A stretch of 64,000 nt of DNA, taken from assembly GCA_902528515.1 (NCBI GenBank), contig CABZTD010000008.1:1-64000 (forward strand), given 5' to 3'. Made by a program: the position numbers and the translations under genes. Shown here one piece after another: positions 28,761 to 34,099 of the stretch. The DNA comes from K189A clade bacterium (GTDB lineage Bacteria > Pseudomonadota > Gammaproteobacteria > Pseudomonadales > Azotimanducaceae). How positions within the stretch are numbered: the first letter of the stretch is position 1; each line of letters opens with the position of its first letter. The notes under the pieces were generated by a model. The model saw nothing but the letters and a program-made list of their open reading frames with translations, was not told the DNA's origin and did not search any database.

Positions 28761-29234
28761 CTAGGTTTTAATGCTGTTCAGGTACCTGATCAGGGTCAGG
28801 GTCTCTGCGGGATCCATCCGTCCCACCGGGGCGTTGCTGTAGGCAGAAAACATTACCTTGCCTTTGGGGCTCAACACGAATTCGCTGGGCTGAATGAAAT
28901 CTCGCCGCTCATCCCACCATGATCCCAGAGCATTACCGATATCGCGGGTAACGCCATAAGCAAGCGGAAAGTTCAGCGCCTTTGCCACCTCTTGTGTTTT
29001 TTCCTTGGAATCTACCGTGGCGGCAATGATGCTGACGCCTTCTGCTGAGAACGCTACACGGCGTTCTTCATAGCCGGCTAACAGCCGACGGCAGTAGGGT
29101 CACCAATGGCCGCGATAAAATAGCACGACGGTATACTGGCTTTCCAAATCAGCGGGCAGGTTAACGGTATCACCTGCCGTGCTAGTTAGGACGATGTCCG
29201 GAAATTGGTCACCGGTTGTAAGCATGGTTGTCAT
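28761..29234 (-). CDS. Redoxin (AhpC/TSA-type) with in-frame UGA: candidate selenoprotein with a UxxC motif
   Basis: Conventional reading breaks this gene into two fragments, but one continuous 158-codon frame runs from the ATG at 29234 to the stop at 28761 with a single internal UGA, codon 45 (29102-29100). The protein reads VVLFYRGHW-U-PYCRRLL, where related redoxins have Cys, so the CxxC becomes UxxC (Sec45, Cys48). Everything around it is intact: N-terminal FPDIVLTSTAGDTVNL, then ATVDSKEKTQ, FPLAYGVTRDIG, FVLSPKGKVMF and PVGRMDPAE. A hairpin resembling a bacterial SECIS begins 8 bases after the UGA. AGGAG precedes the start. It would act as a thiol/selenol peroxidase or oxidoreductase in the cytosol. 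Alternative: a nonsense pseudogene, less likely given perfect placement. Confidence 0.85.
29073..29092 (-). promoter_or_regulatory. Putative bacterial SECIS hairpin
   Basis: Bases 11-30 counted from the U of the UGA fold as GCC / bulge GUC / GGCU / loop GUU / AGCC / GGC: seven base pairs, a 3-nt bulge containing U on the 5' side, and an apical loop starting with GU. In the E. coli fdhF SECIS the SelB contacts are a bulged U at position 17 and G23-U24 in the loop. Here the bulged U is 15 and the loop GU is 21-22, a uniform 2-base shift. The resemblance is seen by eye; no folding program was run. Confidence 0.7.
29100..29102 (-). other. In-frame UGA proposed to encode selenocysteine (residue 45)
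   Basis: On the minus strand the codon after TGG (Trp44) is TGA, followed in frame by CCC-TAC-TGC (Pro-Tyr-Cys). It lies at the first Cys position of the redoxin CxxC motif. Both sides are coding in the same frame and there is no other stop until the end of the gene. Confidence 0.85.
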
Positions 29235-29289
29235 TCGATCTCCTAGTTTGCTTTGATAGCGTCTTTTCTCAATGTGAATCTTGTATTTA

Positions 29290-30447
29290 CTAGACAAACA
29301 GGCTAGCAAACTCCCGCCGCTCGTTGCTGCTTCGGCAGCTCTTAATACAGCGCGCCAAAATCGGTAGCCCATCGCGTATCTGTTTTTGGGTTAGGTGTCC
29401 GAAAGCCAAGCGCAGATATGGCACCCGATCGCGCCGATAGTGAAAACTCTGGCCCGGTAGGAAATTCACGCCTTTCTCCAACGCTAGCGGTCGCAGGGCC
29501 TGGGTATCAACGTCGTCTGGAAGACGAACCCATATGAACAGCCCACCGATAGGCTCTGACCAGACGCAGATGTCGCCTAGCTCGGACTCTAATCCCTCCA
29601 GGGTAAGGTCGCGTTTTTCTTTTAGCACCGGGTTGGTGGCCTTGGCGTGCTTTTGAATACCGTCCTGATAAAACTCCGCGGCAATGGCGGCAGCGAGGTA
29701 GTTACTGCCCGCGTCATGGCGGCGACTCATTATCTTTTCGAGCATCGGTGGGCGTGCATAGATGTAGCCCAAACGCAGCCCCGGCGCCAAAATTTTGGAG
29801 AGCGAGCACAGGTAGATTTGGTTGGGATCGTCATCCAACGCGTAAAATGCTGGCTCTAATGGACCCTCATAATGCACATCGGCGTAGCAGTTATCTTCAA
29901 CAATGGGCACGCCATAGTGCTTGGCCATTTCAATGATCTGCAGCCTGCGGGCCTTGGGCATGACGAAGCCCGTAGGGTTTTGATAGGTCGAAATCGTGTA
30001 GATGAACTTTGGTAGACGCTTCTCCTTGTGTAGGCGGTCTAGCTCCCGCTCCACTGCGTCAGGACACATGCCGCCCTCGTTTAACGGTATGCCCACCATC
30101 TCGTATTTTAAAGAGCGATAGGCGCTCAGCGTGCCGGGATAGCAGTACTCTTCCACGAGCACCGTATCGCCGTGATTTTCCTGCAGCGCCTCGGCGGTGA
30201 GTGTTACTCCCTGCATAGAGCCGTTTGTCAGTAGCAGATGATTTGGATCGATGCGGATGCCTTCACGGTCTTCTTCCCGCTGGGCCATGGCAGCGCGCAT
30301 TCCTGCGTGGCCTAGGTCGCCGGGGTACTGGGTGAGCGCTTCGGCCTGTTCCTCAATCACTTTGTTAGCGGCCGCCTGTAGCGCTGCCACTGGAAAAGTC
30401 GCCGGATCAGATCGTCCGCTGCCGAAGTCGTATTTTATTTGTGTCAT
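29290..30447 (-). CDS. PLP-dependent fold-type I aminotransferase (LysN/MocR catalytic-domain-like)
   Basis: A 385-residue aminotransferase similar to 2-aminoadipate or aromatic aminotransferases of the subfamily that also supplies MocR regulators. There is no N-terminal DNA-binding domain here. Visible: substrate/PLP loop TNGSMQG (74-80), YQNPTG with Asn157, VEDNCY with Asp185, the Schiff-base Lys218 in SLSKILAPGLR and Arg225. It exchanges an amino group between an amino acid and a 2-oxo acid; specificity is not predictable. It lies 55 bases upstream of the redoxin on the same strand, so the two may share a transcript. An adjoining 500-base gap precedes it. Confidence 0.88.
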   Translation of the reverse strand: MTQIKYDFGSGRSDPATFPVAALQAAANKVIEEQAEALTQYPGDLGHAGMRAAMAQREEDREGIRIDPNHLLLTNGSMQGVTLTAEALQENHGDTVLVEEYCYPGTLSAYRSLKYEMVGIPLNEGGMCPDAVERELDRLHKEKRLPKFIYTISTYQNPTGFVMPKARRLQIIEMAKHYGVPIVEDNCYADVHYEGPLEPAFYALDDDPNQIYLCSLSKILAPGLRLGYIYARPPMLEKIMSRRHDAGSNYLAAAIAAEFYQDGIQKHAKATNPVLKEKRDLTLEGLESELGDICVWSEPIGGLFIWVRLPDDVDTQALRPLALEKGVNFLPGQSFHYRRDRVPYLRLAFGHLTQKQIRDGLPILARCIKSCRSSNERREFASLFV

Positions 30448-30947: not shown

Positions 30948-33431
30948 TTAGCCCCCGGATCGATCAGCAAGAGATGCTCTGCTTGGCGCTGGGTTGCGAA
31001 TAAGTTGCGCAGACGGTGTCTTTCGCTCGTACTTTTCTGCAGGCGTATTTATGATCTCCAGCAATTCGCCTTGGGCTAAGCCTGCTTTGATTCGCTCTTC
31101 GCTCACTGTGCCGTAGCTGGTAGATCGCTGCTGTGGATCACGGTTGAGACGCCGAACCAGATTGGCCATCTGTCGTGGATTCGTTTCTTGTCCGTGCTGG
31201 GTGCCCGCTGCACGGCTGATGGATTCGTTCATCAGCGTACCGCCAAGATCATTGCAACCCGCGTTTAGGCAGGCTTTGACCCCTTCGTGGCCCATCTTAA
31301 CCCAACTGGTTTGGATGTTGTCGATCTGACCGTTTAGTGCAAGTCTGGCTACCGAGTGCATCAAGATCGCTTCTCGAAAAGTCGGGCCTTTGCGTGCCTT
31401 ACCTTTGAGGTACATAGGCGCTTCCATGTGCACAAAGGGTAGGGGTACAAACTCGGTAAACCCGCCAGTGCGTTCCTGAAGCTCGCGCACGCGCATAAGA
31501 TGTCGCGCCCAGTGCTCGAGTTTCTCAACATGGCCGTACATGATCGTGGCGGTGGTTTTGTAGCCGACACTATGGGCTGTCTCCATAACATCTAACCATT
31601 GTTGGGTATTGATCTTGTCAGCGCAGATGATTTTGCGTACTTCATCATCCAAAATCTCTGCGGCAGTGCCAGGGAGCGTGTTGAGCCCAACATCTTTCAG
31701 CTGCTGCAGATACTCGCCGATGTCCACGTTAAGGGTAGCTGCGCCCTGCCACACTTCTAGCGGCGAGAACGCATGTACGTGCATGTTGGGCTGCGCCGAC
31801 TTAACCGTACGCACGATATTGATGTAGGTCTCGCCGGTGTATTCCGGATGTATTCCACCTTGCATGCACACTTCCGTTGCGCCGCGCTCCCATGCCTCGG
31901 TAGTACGTCGAGCAATTTCTTCATCCGATAAATCGTAGGGATTCCCGCGCAGGTTTTCTGACAGCTTGCCCTTAGAAAAGGCGCAGAACTGGCATTTGAA
32001 GTAGCAGATGTTGGTGTAGTTGATGTTGCGGTTCACGACGAAGCTAACGCTATTGCCATTAGTCTTTGCACGCAGGGTGTCTGCACGCTGCACCACCGCC
32101 GAAAAGTCGTCGCCTCGGCTTTGGAACAACCGAATAATCTCGGCCTCTTGCAACGCTTCTCCGGCGCTAGCCTTATCGAGCAGCGCGGCGATATCTGCGC
32201 TGACATGGCGTGGTGTGTTAACGATCGCGCTCATTACTTCGTTTGGTGGCGAGATGTCGACATCTCCAGGGCACCATTCGTCGATGCGAGGGAAGCCCTC
32301 TGCATCGATCATTTCTAGCATACGTACATGCAGGTCCGAGTGTGCCCAACGATCTAGATCTACCGCATAATCGGGATATACGGTTAGACGTTCGGTAAGA
32401 AACTTGCCAGCTGAGGCTGTCTCTCGAGCCAGTTCGTCCAAGTGCGGCCAGGGAGCTTCGGGGTTCACGAAGTCAGGTGTTACCGGTGACACGCCCCCCC
32501 AGTCGTTAATTCCGGCGTGGACAATTTGAGGTAGCACGCCTGGGCTCAAGTTGGGTGGCGCCTGCACGCTCATGGTTGGCCCGAAAATCAGGCGGGCAAT
32601 GGCGATCGTCCAAAGCAGCTCGTTTAGATCCGGCTCCGGCGCATTGACCATCTTGGTTTCAGGCTTAGCGCGAAAGTTCTGCACGATGATTTCTTGCACA
32701 TGGCCGTACCGTTCGTGAATCGCGCGAATGGCCAGCAGACTCTCGATGCGCTCAAGGCGGGTCTCCCCTATCCCGATAAGAATACCGGTAGTAAACGGCA
32801 CCTTGGCGATACCGGCGTTCGCCAGTGTTTGCAGTCTGACCGCAGGAACCTTGTCTGGCGAGCCGTAATGGGGCATCCCTTTTTCGCAGAGCCGCTCAGA
32901 TGCCGACTCCAGCATTATACCCATAGAAGGCGAAACCGTTTTTAATCGGGCTAGTTCCTCAGACTCCAAATTGCCAGGGTTTAAGTGGGGCAACATGCCG
33001 GTTTCTTCGAACACGGCCTTAGCGGCAGCGAACAGATAGTCAGTCGTGGATTCGTAGCCCATTTCTGCTAGCGCGTCGCGCGCTGCTTGATAGCGCAGTT
33101 CAGGTTTTTCGCCCAGAGTGAACAGTGCTTCCTTACAACCCATGCTAGCCCCGTGTCGGGCAACCTCCAATACCTCGTCAATGCTCATATAGGGAGCCAT
33201 TACTTTGCGCGGTACTCGGGCAAATGTGCAGTAGTGGCAAACATCCCGGCATAGGTGTGTTAACGGAATAAAGACCTTTCGGGAATAGGTCACGGTATTA
33301 CGAAAACCTTGATCGCGCAGAACAGAAGCCACATCAGCTAGTGCTCTGGTATCGGTAAACTCTGCGAGCGTCAACGCGTCGTCGTCACCCAAACGGTCAC
33401 CTTCGCGCACTTGTTGCAGTAGACTGTTCAT
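30948..33431 (-). CDS. fbiC: FO synthase, fused CofG-CofH (FbiC-type) radical SAM enzyme
   Basis: An 827-residue two-domain radical SAM protein that makes the deazaflavin FO from tyrosine and 5-amino-6-ribitylaminouracil, the first committed F420 step. The CofG half has its iron-sulfur cluster Cys at 61, 65 and 68 (CRDVCHYC); the CofH half has Cys476, 480 and 483 (CYFKCQFC). The order and length match the fused actinobacterial and cyanobacterial-type enzyme rather than the separate archaeal proteins. The start at 33431 overlaps the cofC stop by 4 bases (ATGA); the longer open frame to 33575 runs through cofC and is rejected. It is the last gene of the cofC-fbiC pair. Confidence 0.95.
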   Translation of the reverse strand: MNSLLQQVREGDRLGDDDALTLAEFTDTRALADVASVLRDQGFRNTVTYSRKVFIPLTHLCRDVCHYCTFARVPRKVMAPYMSIDEVLEVARHGASMGCKEALFTLGEKPELRYQAARDALAEMGYESTTDYLFAAAKAVFEETGMLPHLNPGNLESEELARLKTVSPSMGIMLESASERLCEKGMPHYGSPDKVPAVRLQTLANAGIAKVPFTTGILIGIGETRLERIESLLAIRAIHERYGHVQEIIVQNFRAKPETKMVNAPEPDLNELLWTIAIARLIFGPTMSVQAPPNLSPGVLPQIVHAGINDWGGVSPVTPDFVNPEAPWPHLDELARETASAGKFLTERLTVYPDYAVDLDRWAHSDLHVRMLEMIDAEGFPRIDEWCPGDVDISPPNEVMSAIVNTPRHVSADIAALLDKASAGEALQEAEIIRLFQSRGDDFSAVVQRADTLRAKTNGNSVSFVVNRNINYTNICYFKCQFCAFSKGKLSENLRGNPYDLSDEEIARRTTEAWERGATEVCMQGGIHPEYTGETYINIVRTVKSAQPNMHVHAFSPLEVWQGAATLNVDIGEYLQQLKDVGLNTLPGTAAEILDDEVRKIICADKINTQQWLDVMETAHSVGYKTTATIMYGHVEKLEHWARHLMRVRELQERTGGFTEFVPLPFVHMEAPMYLKGKARKGPTFREAILMHSVARLALNGQIDNIQTSWVKMGHEGVKACLNAGCNDLGGTLMNESISRAAGTQHGQETNPRQMANLVRRLNRDPQQRSTSYGTVSEERIKAGLAQGELLEIINTPAEKYERKTPSAQLIRNPAPSRASLADRSGG

Positions 33432-34099
33432 GTTTTTGACTCCGGTTTTGACTGCCGGTTTGCCAAACGGCGGGCGATACCTGATCGGTATAAATAGGTG
33501 GCGGTTTGGCTGCGCGAGTGTTCTGCTAGCAAGGTTTGTAAATCGCCGGGCGTGTCGATGTCCAGCGCAAAACAACTACTCGGAATTAGTCGCGGCGTCA
33601 TACCGTTGGTGAAGGCGGCATCAGCGTGTGGTTTGAAACTCTTGCCATCGAAGATAAATGGGATGGCATTCGGCGGGCTGCAGATCATGCCATTCGTGCC
33701 AATATTTTCGGCGTCAGGAAGAAGGGTTACCGAGGTATTAGATTGAATCAGTTCGTCTACCTGATCGGTATTAATACCCGGCACATCCGCGGGCACAATG
33801 AATACACCCGTAGCATTGAAATGCTCAACAAGGTAGTCGGCGGCTTGGGTGAGCGCACCAGCGAGATTGGCGTCAGGGCTTTCAGCGAAGCGCTCGGTGG
33901 AAAAAGCCGAAGCCAGTACATCAGCCTCGGATGCACGAGAAACGATTAAAATGCCCGTCAGGTGTTCAGCTTTGGATAAGCAGGTAAGCACGTCACGCGC
34001 CATGGCTAGCATTAGTGAGCGTCGTTCCTCCTCGTTTAAGACGTCAGCCAGTCGTTGTTTCGCGCGCTCGAACGTCTTGATGGGAACAATCGCCCACAT
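33428..34099 (-). CDS. cofC: 2-phospho-L-lactate (or phosphoenolpyruvate) guanylyltransferase
   Basis: A 223-residue nucleotidyltransferase with the N terminus MWAIVPIKTFERAKQRL typical of CofC/FbiD, then IVPADVPGI (metal/GTP site) and LDIDTPGDL near the C terminus. It activates a three-carbon phosphoacid with GTP to form the guanylylated donor used by CofD. Whether it prefers 2-phospholactate, PEP or 3-phosphoglycerate varies between lineages and cannot be told from sequence by eye. AGGAG lies 7 bases before its ATG, and its stop overlaps the fbiC start. A 268-base gap separates it from cofD. Confidence 0.9.
   Translation of the reverse strand: MWAIVPIKTFERAKQRLADVLNEEERRSLMLAMARDVLTCLSKAEHLTGILIVSRASEADVLASAFSTERFAESPDANLAGALTQAADYLVEHFNATGVFIVPADVPGINTDQVDELIQSNTSVTLLPDAENIGTNGMICSPPNAIPFIFDGKSFKPHADAAFTNGMTPRLIPSSCFALDIDTPGDLQTLLAEHSRSQTATYLYRSGIARRLANRQSKPESKT

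Follow-up and report, generated by a model that had tools for sequence, protein, structure and literature searches.

An in-frame UGA codon within a small redoxin gene is almost certainly read as selenocysteine (Sec) in a K189A clade bacterium and its relatives, and Sec is the best reading of this codon over gene decay, sequence error or a change of the genetic code. More fully, we propose, with a probability of roughly 0.93, that the gene encodes a small AhpC/TSA (Prx-like) selenoprotein in which SelB inserts Sec at residue 45 (U45) with the help of one or more hairpins after the UGA, and in which U45 and C48 form a selenenylsulfide. We infer selenium insertion itself from a conserved UGA, Sec machinery in the genome, RNA pairing beyond the demands of the protein, purifying selection on both sides of the codon and a predicted fold.

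The gene and conservation of its UGA

The gene occupies positions 28761..29234 on the minus strand of the window (the whole 64,000-nt stretch of DNA analysed here), as judged from its translation, a Pfam domain and its relatives. From the ATG at 29234, which follows the ribosome-binding-site-like sequence AGGAG (29240..29244, minus strand) at a distance of 5 nt, it runs for 157 codons to a TAG at 28763-28761. With TGA translated as U the product has 157 residues and a single U, at residue 45 in the motif RGHWUPYCRR; the corresponding UGA lies at 29100..29102 (minus strand). The preliminary description, which stated no strand, had joined two short frames through this UGA into one gene with a UxxC active site and a good ribosome site, and had expected standard gene callers to split it. 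These points are borne out, and table 11 indeed gives two frames instead (29372..29100 and 28988..28761). The window's ORF list has no plus-strand frame of at least 60 aa over the coordinates of the gene.

The window contains 29 TGA read-through frames with a Cys nearby, the Sec gene counted in. Because such frames are common by chance, the case for Sec rests on homology and not on the frame. An AhpC-TSA domain covers residues 8–128 (Pfam, E 3.7e-22) and runs across the UGA codon; among the 28 other read-through frames of the window, none of the nine tested against Pfam has a domain spanning its TGA. A domain that spans the UGA, together with a TGA in all 80 of the relatives kept (see below), is far beyond chance.

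Those relatives come from a scan of named genomes with a query that had X at residue 45 and thus favored neither U nor C. The scan confirmed 199 relatives, of which the best 80 were kept and read. All of these best 80 of 199, on 80 separately listed contigs, have TGA at codon 45, and none has Cys. The active-site motif is RGHWUPYCRR in 53, RGHWUPFCRR in 11 and a near variant in 16, and the source genomes are MAGs titled Pseudomonadales, Gammaproteobacteria, Proteobacteria, OM182, K189A, HTCC2089, SAR86 or Pseudohongiella. Other collections agree. A search of 78 relatives gave 27 matches scoring 189 bits or more, spread over 26 genomes and all with TGA, and in 206 genomes of the family all 88 matches above 190 bits (87 genomes) hold TGA, 87 of them one and the remaining copy two; 10 further matches there are weaker than this set. 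Across 390 genomes of the order, 10 of 10 strong matches have TGA, the window's own copy included and two lying in other families; the next match (84.8 bits) has no stop, and the weaker matches G475:C31 and G040 hold TGA. Wider searches, through 369 genomes of the class and 398 of the phylum, give no match above 190 bits apart from the window's own copy, and the viral contigs contribute a single weak relative (E 2e-4). UPxC is read in every one of the 126 copies fetched that score 190 bits or more, a count that includes duplicates between collections. We tallied 125 of them, setting aside L107 (further TGAs downstream), which was read by eye. L127, on the two-TGA contig of G048, ends at residue 150, at its second TGA.

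Cys is found at both active-site positions in the distant homologues that were read, as RGxHCPxC or RGSWCPYC. These Cys peroxiredoxin-like proteins (L045, L047, L130, L148-L157 and L166-L170) share the domain of the Sec clade, with 34 and 31% identity to the Sec protein for L045 and L047, but they lack the TGA, have a CxxC active site and score at most 120 bits, compared with at least 190 bits for the Sec clade. The closest is L166 (120 bits, RGSWCPYC); L168 reads HCLLC and retains CxxC. The assignment of U45 thus draws on translation, on a UGA conserved among orthologues and on a Cys aligned with it in homologues. The expectation of Cys in most homologues and U in some holds for the wider family, but the close clade is exclusively U in the copies examined.

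If the UGA were instead a true stop, the gene would be a decaying or truncated redoxin or the product of a sequencing error. Termination of the frame under table 11 is compatible with this reading, as are two damaged copies. The copy in G476 (L158, G476:C15) keeps RGHWU but loses its frame immediately afterwards, close to a contig end, perhaps through decay or an assembly fault, and G580 has only a 44-residue C-terminal fragment. Such decay, along with Cys in close relatives, had been named beforehand as evidence that would count against Sec; Cys occurs in 0 of the best 80 of 199, and the disrupted G476 copy keeps its UGA. A true stop is also at odds with the TGA at the same codon in every one of those 80 loci on 80 contigs, with the lack of any other codon at position 45 in the copies examined, with the Sec machinery of the genome and with the constraint on the sequence beyond the UGA. 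Median dN/dS is 0.20 upstream and 0.15 downstream (62 pairs, non-independent), and both sides are under purifying selection. We consider a true stop exceedingly improbable.

A co-oriented upstream gene (29290..30447, minus strand), aminotransferase-like by reading, lies 55 nt from the Sec gene, and the two are possibly co-transcribed. Aminotransferase-like and desaturase-like neighbors (named by reading) occur in only 17 and 16 of the best 80 of 199 loci, respectively, and so give no general operon hint to function. Also on the minus strand of the window, at 30948-34099, is an 875-aa gene that we take to be FbiC-like (a CofG/CofH fusion), adjoining a presumed CofC-like gene; this pair would point to F420 synthesis.

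Selenocysteine machinery and the genetic code

The genome assembly (2.13 Mb, 89 contigs, 75% complete) contains selA, selB, selC and selD, the four genes that the preliminary description had proposed to look for and whose absence it would have counted against Sec. The tRNA-Sec (C7:53851-53939) scores 73.1 bits, above the Rfam cut-off, and ARAGORN gives it the anticodon tca. It shares one locus with selA (C7:47657-48949, 524 bits) and selB (C7:49011-50837, 381 bits). The selD match (C16:19497-20396, 261 bits) lies within an Ndh-SelD fusion of 747 aa (L165:1750-3993, G000:C16), whose NADH-dehydrogenase-like domain was named by reading and which is a Cys form with the motif CGGCGAK; in the excerpts consulted of the 2008 GOS survey (PMC2398784), all Ndh-SelD fusions have CxxC. 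We also observed a tyrosine-integrase-like gene, so named by reading (L164:9852-11333, G000:C7), that starts ~150 nt 3′ of the tRNA-Sec. Its position suggests that a mobile element may have inserted at selC.

A selB gene was detected (E ≤ 1e-60) in 20 of the 26 carriers found among the 78 relatives. Of the six others, G007 has tRNA-Sec, G012 has selA and G029 has a partial selA; neither tRNA-Sec nor selA was found in the drafts of G010, G015 and G020 (completeness 96, 64 and 80%), with 150 of 711 candidates scored in the tRNA search of G010.

These gaps among the carriers lend something to the possibility that UGA is reassigned or leaky and is read as Trp or Cys without selenium. A UGA followed by C is a leaky context, and a C follows the UGA here. 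Of the window's 35 stop-to-stop frames with 300 codons or more, 14 nevertheless end in TGA, which, read mechanically, terminates the Sec gene itself in 24 of the best 80 of 199 relatives. The specific tRNA-Sec with anticodon tca, the Cys aligned with U45 in distant homologues and the RNA-level conservation of hairpins after the UGA (see below) likewise speak against a selenium-free reading, which we judge very improbable. Sequence error, a pseudogene and code reassignment were rejected on the TGA in 80 of 80 (best 80 of 199), dN/dS, the tRNA-Sec and the hairpins.

RNA hairpins after the UGA

Two hairpins can be drawn downstream of the UGA on the minus strand, numbered here with the U of UGA as 0. 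HP1 (nt 13–29, window positions 29073..29089) has a 7-bp stem and a GUU triloop 17 nt after the UGA, and is a SECIS core candidate by folding, pairing statistics and the bSECIS model. HP2 (nt 36–53, 29049..29066) has a 6-bp stem, GAACGC/GCGUUC, and a hexaloop CGUGUA 39 nt after the UGA, and is SECIS-like by codon constraint and pairing statistics. An Rfam scan of the window returned nothing above gathering scores.

We examined both hairpins in 71 copies below 92% identity, drawn from the 78 distinct stretches among the 125 tallied copies. HP1 forms a mean of 6.42 of 7 pairs, compared with 4.45 under synonymous recoding (300 sets, maximum 4.85), and HP2 a mean of 5.31 of 6, compared with 4.15 (maximum 4.37). 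At least six of the seven HP1 pairs are present in 68 of the 71 copies and all six HP2 pairs in 50 of them, and sliding the partners by 1 to 3 nt leaves at most 3.42 (HP1) and 3.27 (HP2) pairs. Synonymous constraint in the gene peaks at codons +14 and +16, followed by +7, +4 and +13. Codon +14 is CGT in 56/71 copies, compared with 15% of Arg elsewhere in the gene, and codon +16 is GCG in 57/71, compared with 21% of Ala elsewhere. The HP1 pair 17-25 is formed in all eight copies with Asp, Val, Asn, Ser or Gly at +8; with Ala at this position it is formed in 41 of 63 and unpaired in 22. Folding energy relative to recoding gives a modest signal (mean z −0.83, 50/71 below 0), with six control windows ranging from −0.55 to +0.33 and two of them reaching −0.55 and −0.35. 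RNAalifold detected HP1 only in the 71 copies, so that HP2 is proposed on codon constraint and on pairing relative to recoding.

The bSECIS model, as given in the excerpts consulted of a 2026 review (PMC13188914), calls for a loop of 3–9 nt, a stem of 4–16 bp, a G in the first two loop positions, a spacing of 16–37 nt from the UGA and an MFE of at most −7.5 kcal/mol. The window's HP1 agrees on every count, with a 3-nt loop, G first, 7 bp, 17 nt and −10.7 kcal/mol. In HP2 the 6-nt loop has its G in second place and the stem is 6 bp long, and the 39-nt spacing falls just outside the range. The HP2 loop has CGUG in 56/71 copies, and a G is present in the HP1 loop in 40/71. When the loop G is scored as G first in the HP1 loop, or as G second in the loop of an HP2 with five or more pairs, it is found in HP2 only in 31 copies, in both hairpins in 25, in HP1 only in 15 and in neither in none. 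A Fisher test of HP2 loss against HP1 loop G gives 5.6e-5, which overstates the association; parsimony counts only 4 changes in HP2 and 13 in HP1-G on a FastTree tree rooted on one Cys sequence, with a printed support of 0.0 for the U clade. We offer tentatively, at rather less than even odds, a two-hairpin SECIS in which the G contacted by SelB would lie either in the proximal triloop (17 nt) or in the distal hexaloop (39 nt, beyond the 16–37 range), recognition having moved between the hairpins within the family.

Twenty weaker redoxin-like stretches with TGA and UxxC from the same genus (L171-L190) read, for example, NRSADWUPFC, FNRSVDWUPFC, FYRGFWUPPC, FFRGHWUPYC and RGHWUPACN, and this clade of the genus looks rich in selenoproteins, as far as sequence can tell. 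A hairpin scan without a chance control lists, for 18 of the 20, one or more G-loop hairpins no farther than 60 nt from the UGA. A loop at 16–21 nt is listed for 14 (L171-L177, L181-L185, L189 and L190) and not for L178, L179 or L180; five of the eight stretches L178-L185 have the loop at 16 nt. In three near-identical loci (L186-L188, FFRGHWUPYCVAEL), the sole listed G-loop hairpin, GGUC, is at 39–40 nt. A distal SECIS loop in the K189A lineage is plausible.

Active site and relation to known proteins

An AlphaFold2 model built from 35 sequences, with C45 in place of U, has a pLDDT of 92.1 and a pTM of 0.88. Its best structural matches are the peroxiredoxins BcpB (5epf; Z 20.8, rmsd 2.0, 148 aligned) and Bcp4 (3hjp; Z 20.8), followed closely by human Prx4, AhpE and PrxQ. 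Canonical peroxiredoxins have the motif PxxxT(S)xxC and a catalytic Arg before the VFII strand. In a profile alignment, G-D-F-T-P-V-C of 6q5v corresponds to G42-H43-W44-U45-P46-Y47-C48, so that U45 takes the place of the Thr in PxxxTxxC and C48 that of the peroxidatic Cys. Opposite the catalytic Arg of 6q5v is P116, in a QPSEF segment invariant in the 35 rows. By these Thr and Arg features the Sec protein would be classed as a non-canonical peroxiredoxin, and their replacement makes peroxidase activity doubtful.

We infer that the protein probably works as a selenol oxidoreductase or peroxidase through a U45–C48 selenenylsulfide. SelB and Sec-tRNA-Sec, guided by the hairpin or hairpins right after the UGA, would place Sec at residue 45, the position of the thioredoxin nucleophile, from which the selenolate could attack a peroxide or a disulfide. 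C48, at the peroxidatic-Cys position, would then resolve the intermediate into the U45–C48 selenenylsulfide during turnover, and a thioredoxin-type reductant would reset the pair.

It is also possible, at only slightly under even odds, that Sec is real and the protein is a ResA- or thioredoxin-like thiol-disulfide (selenol) reductase and not a peroxidase. The UxxC motif is thioredoxin-like, U45 falls on the N-terminal Cys of CxxC in an alignment with ResA, neither the Thr nor the catalytic Arg of peroxiredoxins is retained, and Foldseek places a ResA variant 14th. The best 50 structural matches, however, are nearly all peroxiredoxins with ResA not among them, and G138-R139 aligns with the peroxiredoxin GR. 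ResA carries a signal peptide, whereas none is seen by eye in the Sec protein, which is probably cytosolic. A peroxidase thus appears slightly more likely than a disulfide reductase; its substrate and reductant would be those of the scheme above.

The preliminary description had called the selenoprotein unrecognised. This holds in that the window protein stays below the cut-off of every NCBIfam model, but UxxC Prx-like selenoproteins were described in 2005 and 2008 in marine surveys, as that description had itself noted in general terms (excerpts consulted of PMC1088965 and PMC2398784). The best NCBIfam E-value among 35 clade members is 5.5e-8, a match that we take to lie below every listed cut-off. 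NF040769, a SelL-related redox protein model, gives weak matches to 26 of the 35 members and 24.7 bits for the window protein, compared with a cut-off of 120. The open-licence PubMed Central literature yielded no mention of RGHWUPYC and nothing on OM182 together with a selenoprotein, and nothing relevant to a two-hairpin SECIS among the matches listed. The Pseudomonadales Sec clade is not named in the excerpts consulted of PMC1088965, PMC2398784, PMC13188914, PMC12013277, PMC9402790 or PMC9312934, and a 2006 survey (PMC1794560), in the part consulted, gives FdhA as the sole selenoprotein in Pseudomonadales. As far as we have searched, the Sec-only redoxin clade in Pseudomonadales and the candidate two-hairpin SECIS are new. 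The well-supported clade is an addition to Pseudomonadales that table 11 splits and NCBIfam models miss at their cut-offs, and the set of 71 RNA sequences makes it testable which hairpin SelB reads and whether the recognition site moves within the family.

The closest known relatives by description are the Prx-like UxxC selenoproteins. The Sargasso Sea study of 2005 (PMC1088965, excerpts) defined a Prx-like family in which UXXC replaces TXXU, comprising 22 Sec and 4 Cys sequences and assigned to COG0450. The GOS survey of 2008 (PMC2398784, excerpts) listed Prx-like 1 (pfam00578, UxxC) with 225 Sec sequences and 2,740 Cys homologues, and the 2026 review (PMC13188914, excerpts) has a 'Prx-like thiol:disulfide oxidoreductase' (PF00578, UxxC) and a 'Redoxin family protein' (PF08534, UxxC). 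In these excerpts, the marine proteins of 2005 and 2008 are, like the window protein, of AhpC/TSA type with UxxC for TxxU, a likeness by description only, and in the 2005 set Sec forms outnumber Cys forms, as they do in the Pseudomonadales clade. The TxxU selenoprotein peroxiredoxins share the AhpC/TSA fold and active-site helix with the window protein, but their arrangement is reversed in it: U takes the Thr position, and the peroxidatic position is occupied by Cys. One active site thus has Sec and Cys at the two positions that carry out catalysis in the thioredoxin and peroxiredoxin mechanisms.
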